From Nitrospirota bacterium (GTDB lineage Bacteria; Nitrospirota; JACRHL01), in NCBI GenBank assembly GCA_016212085.1, contig JACRHL010000016.1:62001-126000 (forward strand): 64,000 bases of DNA, in the 5' to 3' direction. Made by a program: the position numbers and the translations under genes. Shown here piece after piece: positions 20,609-50,807 of the stretch (position 1 is the first letter of the stretch; every line of letters starts with the position of its first letter). Below the pieces are notes generated by a model, which had not been told where the DNA came from, did not search any database, and saw nothing but the letters and a program-made list of their open reading frames with translations.

Positions 20609-21418
20609 TCACCGTTCCGCCCCCGCCGCGCCCGGCGGCTCCGCCTTGAGCAGCACCCCGGCCCGGTGCGCGGTGCCGGAGGCCGCCTGGCTCTCGGTGA
20701 GCACGGCCACCAGGGCCGCGGCGAGGCGTTGCACGCGGTTCGGGTCGTGGGCGGAAAGCTGCGCGCGGTAGCGGGCCTGGAGGGGGTCGAAGTCGGTGAA
20801 CGCCGAGGCCTTCAACTCGTAGCGCCCCATGTAGGCCGCGCCGCCGGGGGGCACGGGCTGCTCCGTCCGGGCGATCATGTCCTCGGGAAAGTAGACCAGG
20901 GTGATCGGCCCCTCGCCAAACCGGAACGCGGCCGCCACCGCCGTGTAGCGGCCCGTGGCGGCGCCGCCCAGGTAGGCGCGCCCCCCCACCACGTGGGTGG
21001 AGGCGTACAGCACCGGCTCCCACACGGGCCGGCCCCCCTCGTCGTACAGGCAGGTGGGGTCGCCACCGGCGGCGAAGCCCCCCTCGCCGTCGATGGCGCC
21101 CACCGATCCACGGTGCTCCGCCGCCGCCTCGCCCAGGGGCTGGGGACGCTCCAGGTCGCGGGCGAACAACGCCTCGCGCGGGACGCAGGGCGAGCCGTTC
21201 AGGCCGCTGATGCGGGCGAAGTACACCCGCTCCGGGCGCAGGGAGATGAGCCCCATCTGGCGCAACGTCACGTCCACCCACACCGCCGGCGGCGCCACCC
21301 CTTCGGGCAGGGCCGCGTCCACGGCGGCCGGAGGGCGCGGGCCCGAGGCGCAGCCGGTGGCGGCCACCACCAGGCAGGCGAGCGTCAGCCGGGCGAGGGG
21401 GACAAGATGGGCGTGCAT
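20609..21418 (-). CDS. predicted lipoprotein of unknown function
   Basis: I do not recognise this 269-residue protein. Its N-terminus ([18 protein letters not shown]) is a lipoprotein signal with lipobox AATGC; the lipidated Cys is at about residue 23. The mature part has no repeats or known catalytic motif. It carries two widely spaced cysteines (in NGSPCVPRE and [10 protein letters not shown]) that could form a disulfide in the periplasm. Its start codon lies at the edge of a decayed sulfotransferase fragment. Confidence 0.7.
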
Positions 21419-21563
21419 GCCTGCTCCAACGCCGCGCGTGGCGGCCCCAGGTGTTTTTCGTCATGGCGCGGCCCACGGAGCGGTCGTGGATGGGCCGCCG
21501 CACCGGATCGTGGCTGGCCACCACCCGCCGGGTGGTGTGGAAGCTCGGGCAGGCGTCGTCCCA
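21419..21563 (-). pseudogene. frame-broken remnant of a sulfotransferase C-terminus
   Basis: Reading the minus strand from 21563 gives WDDACPSFHTTRRVVASHDP, then VRRPIHDRSVGR. This matches the C-terminal signature of TPR-sulfotransferases as I recall it (W-x-x-AC-x-x-FH-x-TRR-x-V, then VRQPIY-x-x-SVGRW). Near 21463-21473 the frame must shift, and the neighbouring frame continues [18 protein letters not shown], the expected next segment (YEKHLGPL-x-AL). The upstream 250 or so residues of such an enzyme are absent. It is therefore a short, frameshifted relic lying between a TPR glycosyltransferase-like gene and a lipoprotein gene. Confidence 0.65.
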
Positions 21564-21656
21564 CCGCGTCGGAATCGTCCATGCGTCGTTCCCAGGGCTC
21601 CGAAGGAGCGTTACCCGATGGTAGGCGGGGCCGGTGCCGTTGGCAAGGCGGGGGGG

Positions 21657-23048
21657 TCAGGCCTTGGCGGTCAGGGCCAGCAGCGGGCGGCCGAGCTTCT
21701 CGTAATCGTAATCGCCGATGAATGCCGCCGCGCCGCGCCAGTCCTTGAACTCCGAGACGAAGCGCGAGATGTTCGAGTAGACATTGCCGACGAAGTAATC
21801 CGCCTCCAGGGCCAGCAGCACGTCCCGCACCACCTCCTCGCCCAGGCGCACGCGGCCGGGGCCCTCCTGAAAATGCACGCCCACCGTGCCCCGCGTGCGC
21901 TGGCAACGGGTGGACACCACCCGCTCCCCGAAGGCCTTCGTGAACCGCTCCAGCTCCACCTCGCTGTCGGTGAGGACAAACAACCGGTGGTCCGGGCAGC
22001 GCTTCAGCGCCCGTTCCACCAGGCCCATGGTCTTGCGGTTGACGGCCTTCAGGTCCGCCCGTTCCACCGCCTTGTCGGAGCCCCGGACGTGCACCGCCAC
22101 GTAGGGCCCCGGCAGGTGCTCGCGGCGGAACGCCGCGGCCTGCGCCACCCGGGGCGGGGCGAACGCGATGTATTTGCGGATCAACGCCCGGTTGATGTCG
22201 CGCACCGGCCTGCCGTGCAGCGGATGCCCGTCGGGAATCCAATGCTTCAACTCCGACACCCAGCAGTAGAAGTCGCTCACCACCAGCGGCTCGGCGCGGC
22301 CCAGCAGATCGATGGGCCCGAGCCGCGAGAACGGGCCGTTCCAGACGTTGTTGTTGTCGGTCAGCAGGTTGTCCGCCGTCCACTTGGGCGGAAAGATCCC
22401 GCCCTCCTCCCGGGGCAGGTCGGCGGCGGCCATGTCCGACAGGGGCTTGAAAAAATGGCGGAATGCGTCCACGCCGCCGCCGTCGGAGAACAGGCAGTTG
22501 TCACCCCAGTGCACCACCGGGATGCGCCCGGTCAGCTCCGCCAGCAGGCAGTGGCCGATCACGTGGTGCACCTCGGAAAAGAAGCCGGCCCCCCACGCCT
22601 TGATGAGCAGGTAGCGCGGCGCGCCGCCCGGAAGCGGCGCCGGGGCCGCGCGGAGCGCCTCGGGCAGCGCCGGGAACTCCCGCTCCGCCCGCTCCCGGTC
22701 GGCCCGCGCCACGGGCCAGTCCGGGTTGCAGCGCACGGCCGCGCGGAACCGCTCCAGGCCGGGCCGGGGCAACCCGGCCATCCACGCGACGCCCCCCAGC
22801 AGGTGGTGCGCCTCGGCCAGTTCGGGCGCCAGTTCGAGCGCCATGCGGCAGCGCAGGTCGGCGAGGCGAGGCTGCCGTTTCTGGAACCACTGGGCCGCGT
22901 CCAGAAAATGGGCCCGCGCCAGCAGCGTGCGCGCCTGGGCGCCGTTCCGGGCGTCGTCCAGCAGCGGACCGCACAGGGCATGCACCTGGGACAGGTCGCC
23001 CCGCGCCAGGGCGCCGGTTGCCTGCTGGATGGCTTGCGCGGTTTTCAC
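21657..23048 (-). CDS. TPR protein fused to a fucosyltransferase-like domain
   Basis: This 463-residue protein begins (GTG start) with helical repeats of TPR character up to about residue 125, including LAEAHHLLGGVAWMAGLPRPGLERFRAAVRCNPDW. The larger C-terminal part has YLLIKAWGAGFFSEVHHVIGHCLLAELTGRIPVVHWG and the motif YVAVHVRGSDK (residues about 316-326). That motif resembles the GDP-fucose-binding HxRxxD segment of alpha-1,6- and O-fucosyltransferases (NodZ/GT23 type). It would modify a protein or glycan in the cytoplasm, since there is no signal peptide. The donor sugar is inferred from one motif and the fold order only. Confidence 0.65.
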   Translation of the reverse strand: MKTAQAIQQATGALARGDLSQVHALCGPLLDDARNGAQARTLLARAHFLDAAQWFQKRQPRLADLRCRMALELAPELAEAHHLLGGVAWMAGLPRPGLERFRAAVRCNPDWPVARADRERAEREFPALPEALRAAPAPLPGGAPRYLLIKAWGAGFFSEVHHVIGHCLLAELTGRIPVVHWGDNCLFSDGGGVDAFRHFFKPLSDMAAADLPREEGGIFPPKWTADNLLTDNNNVWNGPFSRLGPIDLLGRAEPLVVSDFYCWVSELKHWIPDGHPLHGRPVRDINRALIRKYIAFAPPRVAQAAAFRREHLPGPYVAVHVRGSDKAVERADLKAVNRKTMGLVERALKRCPDHRLFVLTDSEVELERFTKAFGERVVSTRCQRTRGTVGVHFQEGPGRVRLGEEVVRDVLLALEADYFVGNVYSNISRFVSEFKDWRGAAAFIGDYDYEKLGRPLLALTAKA

Positions 23049-25084: not shown

Positions 25085-25876
25085 CTACGGCTCGTACCCC
25101 AGCAGGCGCACCGCCCGGCGGTAGTCCCTGTTGGCCCGGAACTGCGCCAGCAGCCTGGGCTCGCACGGCTGCCGGGGGAGCGGCCTGATGGCCCCCTCCT
25201 CGCGGTTGGTCTGGCGGCTGCCGGTGATGGTTTCGTAGGCCGGCCACTTGTCGATGAAGCCCGCGTCGAAGGGCAGCGCCAGCGCCTCGCACAGGCGGGT
25301 CATGACCTGCTCCGGCTGCCGGGTAAAGTCCTCGTAACGGAAAAAACCCACCTGGGCGCCCTGCTCCGCGTAGTGGGCATACCCCCTCAAGAAGGCCTTG
25401 AGGGAGAAGGTCCGGTTGTCCAGCGCCCCCTTCACCAGGTCGAGCTTGCGCACGCTCAGCCACTGGTCGACGGGGTGGCGCACCAGCGCCGCCCGCCGCA
25501 ACTGGAAGCGGCCCGCCAGCGCGTCCACCAGGGCGAACCGGTAGGCCGGCTTGGGCACCCACGGCACCCCGGTAAAATCCAGGTGGGCCCAGTCGCGGAT
25601 CACCAGGCACAGGCCCCGCTCGCGGGCGCGCCGCTCGATGAGCGCGATGGCGTCGGCAAACGGTGCGCCCTGGAGGGCGCGCAGCTCGTCCGCCGTCAGC
25701 AGGCCGAACCAGTCACGGGCCTGCTCGAGCGGGTTGAACATCCGCACCGCCGCCGGGTGGATCTCGCTCAGCATCGCCACGCCGTCCATGCAGCCGACGC
25801 ACTTGCCCATGACGGTGCCCCCGGCCCGCGCCATGTTGTGGATGATCCGGATGGTCGGCTGTTCAGCGCTGGACAT
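25085..25876 (-). CDS. sulfotransferase-like protein
   Basis: This 263-residue protein fits the PAPS-dependent sulfotransferase fold. The N-terminal strand-loop IIHNMARAGGTVMGKC resembles the 5'-phosphosulfate loop. The 3'-phosphate site is ALVRHPVDQWLSVRK (about residues 143-157), followed by FFRYEDFTRQPEQVMTRLCEALALPF. The donor-binding identity is inferred; the acceptor is unknown, possibly a glycan or lipid. I choose ATG 25876. The ORF track start at 25969 lies inside the tRNA terminator hairpin, so a message including it is unlikely; ATG 25900 is an alternative. Confidence 0.75.
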   Translation of the reverse strand: MSSAEQPTIRIIHNMARAGGTVMGKCVGCMDGVAMLSEIHPAAVRMFNPLEQARDWFGLLTADELRALQGAPFADAIALIERRARERGLCLVIRDWAHLDFTGVPWVPKPAYRFALVDALAGRFQLRRAALVRHPVDQWLSVRKLDLVKGALDNRTFSLKAFLRGYAHYAEQGAQVGFFRYEDFTRQPEQVMTRLCEALALPFDAGFIDKWPAYETITGSRQTNREEGAIRPLPRQPCEPRLLAQFRANRDYRRAVRLLGYEP

Positions 25877-25922
25877 GGCAGGCACCTGGGGCACGGCCAT
25901 GCGGACAGGCACGCGCCAAACG

Positions 25923-25973
25923 AAAAAAGCCCGTGGCCGGGTTACGGTTCTGCACCATAACCGGGCCACGGGC
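25923..25973 (-). terminator. intrinsic terminator of the tRNA operon
   Basis: On the minus strand a 16-bp stem with one mismatch (arms 25958-25973 and 25929-25944) is followed directly by six T. It lies 33 bases beyond the 3' end of tRNA-Glu. Confidence 0.85.
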
Positions 25974-31840: not shown

Positions 31841-32965
31841 CTACGGGGCCTTTTGCGCCTCGATCAGCGTTTGCAGCTCGCGGGCCAGGGTGGTGCTGCG
31901 GATCTGCTTGAGCTTGTCGTGCTCGCGCTCGGCGGTGGCCATGTCACCCGCCTTCAGGGCCACCTGGCCCACCAGGAAATGCAGGTCCGGGTCGCGGTCG
32001 TTGCGGCTGGAGGCCTCGCGCACGTGGGGCAGGGCGGCCTTGGCATCGCCCATGTCGAGCAGCAACCGGCCCAGGCCGAGTTGGGCCTCCAGGTTGAACT
32101 TGTCGAGGGCGATGGCCTGCTCGTAGGCGGCCACCGCGTCGGCACGCTTGCCGGCGGCGGCGCGCGCCTGGGCCAAAAACACCTGGTGGGCCGGGCTGCC
32201 CGGATCCAGCGCCACCACCTTGGCATAGGCCTCCGTCGCCTCCTGGGGCTTGTGCTGTGCCATGCGGGTGTGGCCCAGCTCCACCAGGGCCACCAGGTCG
32301 TCGCGGGTCTCCACCTGGTCCAGGGCCAGGGTGAGCAGCTCTGCGGAGCGTTCCAGGTGGCCCAGCTCGCGCTCGATCACCCCCAGCCGGCGCAGGGCGT
32401 AGGTGCTCTCGCCCGTGAGCGCGCGCACCTTCTCCAGGTGCGCCACCGCCTCCTGCGGGCGGGCGGTGACACGGTAGAATTCCGCGATGCGCGCATGGGG
32501 CTCGGCGTGGTCCGGGCGCAGCGCGACCCACTTCTTGAACAGCGCCTCCGCCTCTGCGTCCCGGCCCTTGCCCTGATACAACACGCCCAGGCGCTCCAGC
32601 AGGGGCGGATAGTCCGGGTGGACGCCGTGCAGCATCTCCAGCAGCGCCACCCGCTCCTTGTACTCGCTCTTGTCGAGCTGGTGCAGGAAGTAGGTCTGCA
32701 CGTGGTGCCCCTCCGGCGCCAGCTTCACCCCCCGCGCCAGGGCCTCGAACCCCTCCGCCGGATTGCCCAGCTCGAAGTGCAGGCGGCCCAACTCGAAGAA
32801 CAGGTCCGGCCGCGGATCGGTGGCGACGCGCTTGGCCAGGGTGGCCAGCCGCGCGCGCGGGTCCTGCGGGGCCTCCTTGTCCTGGGCGGTGAGGGTGAGC
32901 GCGGCCAGCCCCACGCAGGCCACCAGCCCGGCGGCAACGCCCCATGCGCGCGCGGAGTGCCTCAC
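31841..32965 (-). CDS. tetratricopeptide-repeat protein with N-terminal membrane anchor
   Basis: This 374-residue protein starts at GTG 32965, overlapping the upstream stop (GTGA). One hydrophobic segment (WGVAAGLVACVGLAALTLTAQ) acts as signal or anchor. At least seven TPR units follow, for example PPLLERLGVLYQGKGRDAEAEALFKKW and LVALVELGHTRMAQHKPQEATEAYAKVVALDP. It presumably scaffolds protein contacts in the periplasm or at the membrane. The partner is unknown. The ORF track version to 33127 reads out of frame through the next gene. Confidence 0.8.
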   Translation of the reverse strand: MRHSARAWGVAAGLVACVGLAALTLTAQDKEAPQDPRARLATLAKRVATDPRPDLFFELGRLHFELGNPAEGFEALARGVKLAPEGHHVQTYFLHQLDKSEYKERVALLEMLHGVHPDYPPLLERLGVLYQGKGRDAEAEALFKKWVALRPDHAEPHARIAEFYRVTARPQEAVAHLEKVRALTGESTYALRRLGVIERELGHLERSAELLTLALDQVETRDDLVALVELGHTRMAQHKPQEATEAYAKVVALDPGSPAHQVFLAQARAAAGKRADAVAAYEQAIALDKFNLEAQLGLGRLLLDMGDAKAALPHVREASSRNDRDPDLHFLVGQVALKAGDMATAEREHDKLKQIRSTTLARELQTLIEAQKAP

Positions 32966-33551
32966 GCCAGCGTCTCCGGAAAGTATTCGGTGATGGACAT
33001 CACCGGCCGCCCCCGGTGGATCACCCGGTAGGTGCGCCACACCACCCGCTCGTCCGCCGCCAGGTTCAGGGCGGTGGCGCACCGGTGGCCCAGGTGGGGC
33101 GCCTCGGCGGCGGCGCATGCGCCGCAATCGACGATCTCCTTGAAGGTCTCCAGCCGGTGCTCGAGCATCAGCTTGCCCAGGGGCTCGCGCTCCGCCAGCA
33201 GCGCCTCCTGCATGCCGAGGGGCAGGGCGGCGGGCACGATGCGCGAGAAGGCGGCGGCCAACGTCACCCCCGAGCCGCGGCCGAACAGGGCGACGCCGCG
33301 GTCCATCAGGCGTGTGCCCAGCTCCACCTCCAGCTCCCGGTTGGCGCGCCCCTCGTAGGCCCGGAACCCCTGCTCCAGGACGCGGATGCCCACCTCCTCG
33401 CCAAAATGGGCGGCGAGCGCCTCGGTCACCGTGCCGTCGGTGGTGAGCAGGGTGCGCAACAACGGCGACAGGCGCCCGAAATCAAGACGCGCGGCCACCA
33501 GTTCGCGGTGCGTGGGCACCCGCTGCAACATCATGGCGGGCCGGGGGCCGG

Positions 33552-49472: not shown

Positions 49473-50807
49473 ATGATCCAACTGTTCCGATCCTTCCTGG
49501 GCGGCATCCACCCCGACTACCGCAAGGAGATGAGCGCCGCCGCCCCGGTGCGCGACCTGCCCCTGCCGGAGCGGGTGGCGGTGCCGCTGATCCAGCACAT
49601 CGGCATGCCCTGCGAGCCGCTGGTGACGGTGGGCGACAGGGTGCTCACCGGGCAACCCATCGGCGACGCCCAGGGGCTGATGAAGGCGCGGGCGCACGCC
49701 ACCGTGTCGGGCACGGTGACGGCCATCGCCCTGCTCCCGCACCCCAGCGGCCGCGAGGTGCCCGCCGTGGTGATCGAGTCCGACGGCGCCGACGAGTGGG
49801 TGGCCCTGGAGCCCTGCCCGGACTACCTGGAACAGCCCGCCGCCACCCTGCTCGCGCGCATCGCCGACGCGGGCATCGTGGGGCTGGGCGGCGCGTCGTT
49901 CCCCACCCGCGTGAAGCTGTCGCCGCCGGCGGAGCACCGCCTGGACACCCTGATCGTCAACGGCGCCGAATGCGAGCCCTACCTGACCGCCGACCACCGG
50001 CTGATGGTGGAGGAGGCGCCGCGCGTGGCGGAGGGGATCCGCGTCATCGCCCGCATCCTGGGGGTGGAGCGCGTGATCGTGGGCATCGAGGACAACAAGC
50101 CCGACGCCATCCGGGCCATGCGGGCCGCCCTGGCCGCCAGCGACCGCCCGGTGACCCTGGGGGTGCTGCCCACCAAGTATCCGCAAGGGGGCGAAAAGCA
50201 GCTCATCGCCGCCCTCACCGGGCGCGAGGTGCCCAGCGGCGGCCTGCCCATGGACGTGGGGGTGGTGGTGCACAACGTGGGCACCGCGGCGGCGGTGCGC
50301 GACGCGGTGTGCCTGGGCAGGCCGCTGGTGGAGCGCATCGTCACCGTGACCGGCGAGGGCATCGCCCGCCCCGGCAACGCCCGGGTGCGCCTGGGAACCC
50401 CGGCCCGGGTGCTGGTGGAGGCCTTCGGCGGCACGGTGGGCGACGTGGGCAAGGTGGTGTTCGGCGGCCCCATGATGGGGGTGGCCCAATACAACCTGGA
50501 CGTGCCGGTGGTGAAGGGCACCTCGGGCATCCTGGTGATCCCCAAGGACGGGATCGACGCGGGGACCATCCGCCCCTGCATCCGGTGCAGCGCCTGCATC
50601 GAGGTGTGCCCCATCGGGCTGTTGCCCAACATGATTTCGGTGTGCGCCGAGCGCGGCGCGTTCACGGACAGCCAGCGGTTCCACCCCTTCGACTGCATCG
50701 AGTGCGGCTGCTGCTCCTACGTGTGCCCGTCGTACCGGCCGCTGGTGCAGATGATCCGCTTCGCCAAGTCCGAGGTGCGCGCCATCAAGCAGAAGGAGCA
50801 CCACTAG
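49473..50807 (+). CDS. rnfC: RNF complex subunit C
   Basis: RnfC is the peripheral NADH-binding subunit of the membrane RNF complex, which exchanges electrons between ferredoxin and NAD and pumps Na+ or H+. The 444-residue protein has the nucleotide/flavin-like region GIVGLGGASFPTRVKLSPP and LIVNGAECEPYLTADHRLM. Two 4Fe-4S motifs follow: CIRCSACIEVCPIGLLP and CIECGCCSYVCPSYRPL. It lacks the long repeat tail of the enteric RsxC. It opens an rnfCDGEAB operon 19 bases after nrdR. Confidence 0.95.
   Translation: MIQLFRSFLGGIHPDYRKEMSAAAPVRDLPLPERVAVPLIQHIGMPCEPLVTVGDRVLTGQPIGDAQGLMKARAHATVSGTVTAIALLPHPSGREVPAVVIESDGADEWVALEPCPDYLEQPAATLLARIADAGIVGLGGASFPTRVKLSPPAEHRLDTLIVNGAECEPYLTADHRLMVEEAPRVAEGIRVIARILGVERVIVGIEDNKPDAIRAMRAALAASDRPVTLGVLPTKYPQGGEKQLIAALTGREVPSGGLPMDVGVVVHNVGTAAAVRDAVCLGRPLVERIVTVTGEGIARPGNARVRLGTPARVLVEAFGGTVGDVGKVVFGGPMMGVAQYNLDVPVVKGTSGILVIPKDGIDAGTIRPCIRCSACIEVCPIGLLPNMISVCAERGAFTDSQRFHPFDCIECGCCSYVCPSYRPLVQMIRFAKSEVRAIKQKEHH

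Follow-up and report, generated by a model that had tools for sequence, protein, structure and literature searches.

In a stretch of 64,000 nucleotides from a Nitrospirota bacterium (contig JACRHL010000016.1, positions 62,001 to 126,000; here the window, with positions counted from its first letter), 238 bases separate a predicted lipoprotein gene from an O-fucosyltransferase-like gene. Part of this gap resembles the end of a sulfotransferase carrying TPR repeats, which raises the question whether a gene was lost here and in what manner. Here we describe the relic, its lesions, its intact relatives and the readings that may account for its presence.

The relic and its homology

The features of the locus, all on the minus strand, are the following.

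20609 to 21418, minus strand: predicted lipoprotein of 269 aa, downstream of the relic (open reading frame, codon bias, lipobox-like TGC)
21419 to 21563, minus strand: relic of a TPR-sulfotransferase C-terminus, both parts, 145 bases, about 48 residues, the last twelfth of the gene
21419 to 21465, minus strand: relic frame 2, resuming the tail after a net loss of 4 nt, in register (profile positions 36-50)
21424 to 21427, minus strand: GGAG resembling a Shine-Dalgarno site, within the relic and 5 nt ahead of the ATG start at 21418, by direct reading
21468 to 21563, minus strand: relic frame 1, WDDACPSFHTTRRVVASHDPVRRPIHDRSVGR (tail profile 33.9 bits, E 2e-9)
21564 to 21656, minus strand: non-homologous spacer from the stop of the O-fucosyltransferase-like gene to the relic, holding a sigma-70-like site at 21646-21618
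21657 to 23048, minus strand: O-fucosyltransferase-like protein of 463 aa, upstream of the relic (PF10250, E 4.8e-7)
25085 to 25969, minus strand: sulfotransferase-like protein of 294 aa from another subfamily, without TPR (PF13469, E 8.1e-5)

Read directly, the relic begins with the tryptophan codon at 21563-21561; frame 1 ends at about 21468, the frame changes at about 21467, and frame 2 runs from 21465 (CAT GAC GAA AAA CAC CTG GGG CCG...) until it meets the ATG at 21418 that opens the next gene. Pfam gave the short relic peptide no match, the peptide being too short, and the C-terminal ends of seven intact relatives were therefore used to build a tail profile. In a six-frame search of the window the frame-1 part matched profile positions 1-34 with 33.9 bits (E 2e-9). 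The frame-2 part alone reached only 4.6 bits, and is in register because its match falls at positions 36-50; as one joined peptide, the two parts reach 52.5 bits and cover positions 1-50. The top score among 30 random first-order-Markov windows with the same dinucleotide frequencies was 11.3 bits. The claim of the earlier note on this DNA, that the minus strand spells the end of a TPR-sulfotransferase across one frame change near 21470, is borne out by these scores.

When the whole proteins of the relatives were searched with tblastn, their sulfotransferase part matched nowhere in the window other than at the relic; the spacer at 21564..21656 matched none of the intact TPR-sulfotransferases by tblastn or profile search. 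Among 99 genomes searched, the best matches (E 1e-5 to 1e-2) came from three genomes of the same family, always at the C-termini of long intact open reading frames, with frame 1 being 53-59% identical to its best matches; the remaining genomes gave E 0.03 or worse. As judged from its sequence, the relic is the frameshifted C-terminus of a TPR-sulfotransferase. That it lies outside any open reading frame, as had been stated, is true of plausible genes only: it stands between predicted genes, but the high G+C content keeps both of its frames open for hundreds of codons, and one of them has an ATG at 21581.

Lesions and intact genes in relatives

The relic lacks the first approximately 570 residues of the protein, which are absent from the window; homology begins at the tryptophan of GLEWDDAC. 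Neither the sulfotransferase core with its 5' PAPS loop (PRSGTS) nor the remainder of PF13469 was found at the relic, where a whole-protein profile matches model positions 575-609 only, and no N-terminal TPR array is attached to it. Compared with the intact tails, the tail of the relic is short of two codons in the invariant STAS motif, has a frameshifting net loss of four bases at the place of WRRY, and no longer carries 8 of the 27 residues that are invariant in the family. No stop codon closes the old frame, which runs past the former end. It follows that a large truncation, together with these smaller lesions, cost the genome this gene. Of the 32 codons in frame 1, 31 have G or C in third position (GC3 in the living genes of the window is mostly 0.90-0.98), so the loss is probably not very old. 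A search for repeats that might have mediated a deletion gave one weak pair of 18 nt, which is uninformative.

No intact TPR-sulfotransferase was found in the genome of the window, a 2.70-Mb assembly estimated as 99.25% complete. This genome has a few other sulfotransferase-like genes, but the sulfotransferase part of the TPR-sulfotransferases has no match among them. The three relatives sampled within its family (G001, G002 and G003) hold seven intact TPR-sulfotransferases of 521-731 aa, one to three in each: a tandem array of three in G002, a tandem array of two and a single copy beside amiC in G003, and a single copy beside amiC, at a contig end, in G001. All of the five proteins scanned carry TPR repeats and Sulfotransfer_3 (PF13469, E 4e-41 to 9e-49). 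NCBIfam models matched one intact relative mainly through its TPRs, and none of them names the protein. With intact homologues in relatives and several independent lesions here, the stretch is an ordinary pseudogene relic, and the gene family is a known one.

In G002 and G003 the tandem arrays stand next to a conserved SPFH gene and to an efflux operon of RND type (L026 5421-11343, L027 4046-7831); this SPFH gene was not found in the genome of the window. The gap between the LysM/amiC-like and xerC-like genes was compared at four loci (L030 5702-7267, L028 145-1917, L060 6770-6780 and L062 6074-6130). It holds a TPR-sulfotransferase in G003 and is clean, with no relic, in the window genome and in G002; from this comparison the gap appears to be a spot of gain or loss for the TPR-sulfotransferase.

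The locus and the fate of the gene

The relic is co-directional with both of its neighbours. The upstream neighbour had been called TPR/fucosyltransferase-like; its likeness to O-fucosyltransferases holds at 30.1 bits to PF10250, just under the cut-off of 31.5, but its TPR match is weak. The intact sulfotransferase-like gene noted nearby is the one at 25085-25969, sulfotransferase-like indeed, but with 23.4 bits to PF13469, below the cut-off of 27. The predicted lipoprotein at 20609-21418 belongs to no Pfam or NCBIfam family, and neither the other genomes searched nor the plasmid collection yielded a relative of it; its gene is an orphan. Two further candidates for a connection with the relic were discarded: the TPR-only gene at 31841-33127, considered as a source of the missing N-terminal half, lies 10 kb off and is a gene in its own right, and the relic is not the end of an O-fucosyltransferase-like fusion, the related 1681-aa protein of Candidatus Nitricoxidireducens bremensis being without a sulfotransferase domain. 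The latter protein (L031 7919-12964) contains TPRs, a GT41 domain, an O-fucosyltransferase-like segment, a methyltransferase and a group-1 glycosyltransferase domain.

The taxonomic order is represented by four genomes only. A full-length relative of the O-fucosyltransferase-like gene occurs only in G001 (45-47% identical), where the sulfotransferase beside it belongs to a different subfamily. G003 shares the hslU-argB-uvrB block that lies left of the lipoprotein gene, but has a divergent MBOAT gene and no sulfotransferase on the other side of hslU. Neither the hslU locus of G003 nor the O-fucosyltransferase-like locus of G001 has an intact TPR-sulfotransferase, and the arrangement differs from that of the window at both. 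The suggested comparison with related genomes thus yielded seven intact genes in three relatives, but none at the same locus. In the window genome hslV and hslU stand apart, hslV being on a different contig (G000:C21:46956-47465 and 49699-50085; L064, L066 and L067), where a second copy, truncated at its 3' end (profile 1-129 of 171), stands about 2.7 kb from the intact one; around the two copies, identity is 97.4% over 727 bases.

The reading preferred here, to which we give a probability of about three in four, is that a TPR-sulfotransferase gene once stood between the O-fucosyltransferase-like and lipoprotein genes and was reduced in place to a lesioned tail. The original gene would have had about 520-730 codons, encoding TPR repeats followed by a PAPS-dependent sulfotransferase domain, and would have pointed in the same direction as both neighbours. 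A deletion would have taken the gene as far as the tryptophan that stands about 48 residues from its end, and the remaining tail would then have lost two codons of an invariant motif and a net four bases, shifting the frame, while several invariant residues were substituted; such a tail is predicted to yield no working protein. Deletion in place and this order of events are our inference; none of the relatives compared has a TPR-sulfotransferase at the locus, which speaks against decay in place. Such decay is nevertheless the simplest reading, since the relic points the same way as the genes on either side and its end coincides with the start codon that follows. Of the proposal that a gene was lost here, the loss itself thus stands, with about 570 residues absent and no intact copy in the genome; the exact former site is less certain, as no relative has the gene at this place.

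The main rival to decay in place is that a stray TPR-sulfotransferase tail was copied or moved in by illegitimate recombination and that the intact gene never stood here. The family does sit at varied places in the relatives (beside amiC in G001 and G003, in SPFH-side tandem arrays in G002 and G003), and partial duplications do occur in the window genome, as the shortened extra copy of hslV 2.7 kb from the complete gene shows; but no donor copy is left in this genome, and the operon orientation and the end exactly at the start of the next gene are those of the 3' end of an upstream operon gene, which makes a stray insertion unlikely. An error of assembly or sequencing that breaks a really intact gene is much less probable still: the genome is a draft in 23 contigs and a base error could produce the frameshift, but not the approximately 570 missing residues, the two-codon loss and the eight lost invariant residues, and no other piece of the sulfotransferase part was found in the 99.25% complete assembly.

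It is scarcely credible that a small working gene lies here, or that the stretch encodes a peptide by recoding (frameshifting): with G+C above 70%, open frames arise easily, even one with an ATG at 21581; the sulfotransferase core is missing from the tail, invariant residues are lost, and no relative keeps the tail as a peptide of its own. Chance similarity might be suspected of so short a stretch, to which Pfam gives no score, but it is refuted by the random-window control, and the E-value and the second piece being in register leave it practically no probability.

For the persistence of the relic under decay in place, the Shine-Dalgarno-like GGAG before the lipoprotein gene may be the explanation, its last bases having perhaps been kept as the ribosome-binding site of that gene. 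A wider proposal, which we regard as doubtful, is that the whole relic has been retained to serve the orphan lipoprotein gene as its 5' leader, with a promoter-like site upstream and the last codons of the dead gene supplying the ribosome-binding site. A promoter scan found one sigma-70-like site in the spacer (21646-21618) where 0.0 were expected, a match to the consensus only. If this were true, the relic would now be regulatory DNA.

The window lineage has lost its last TPR-sulfotransferase, and the sampled relatives keep one to three; any sulfated product of the enzyme should therefore be missing or be made by another sulfotransferase-like gene. Given the relatives, much could be recovered from 145 intergenic bases, and beyond annotation the relic matters little.

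Comparison with known systems

The relic agrees with TPR-containing bacterial sulfotransferases (PF13469, N-terminal TPRs) over about 48 C-terminal residues, WDDACxxFHxTxRxV..ASxxxVRxPIxxxSVxR...EKHLGP..AL; it differs from them in lacking the TPR repeats and the PAPS-binding core, in being frameshifted and in having no stop. The literature offered nothing useful on this bacterial group. The closest solved structures to the catalytic domain of one intact relative are those of tyrosylprotein sulfotransferases 1 and 2 (TPST1/TPST2, e.g. PDB 3ap1 and 5wri; E 1.5e-8), which are eukaryotic and distant, and their alignment with the intact relative reaches up to the start region of the relic and barely touches the relic stretch. 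Truncated pseudogenes in the intergenic DNA of bacteria are likewise short, frameshifted and truncated, with the gene kept in relatives. From such remnants the relic differs in nothing essential, its overlap with the likely ribosome-binding site of the next gene being a detail.
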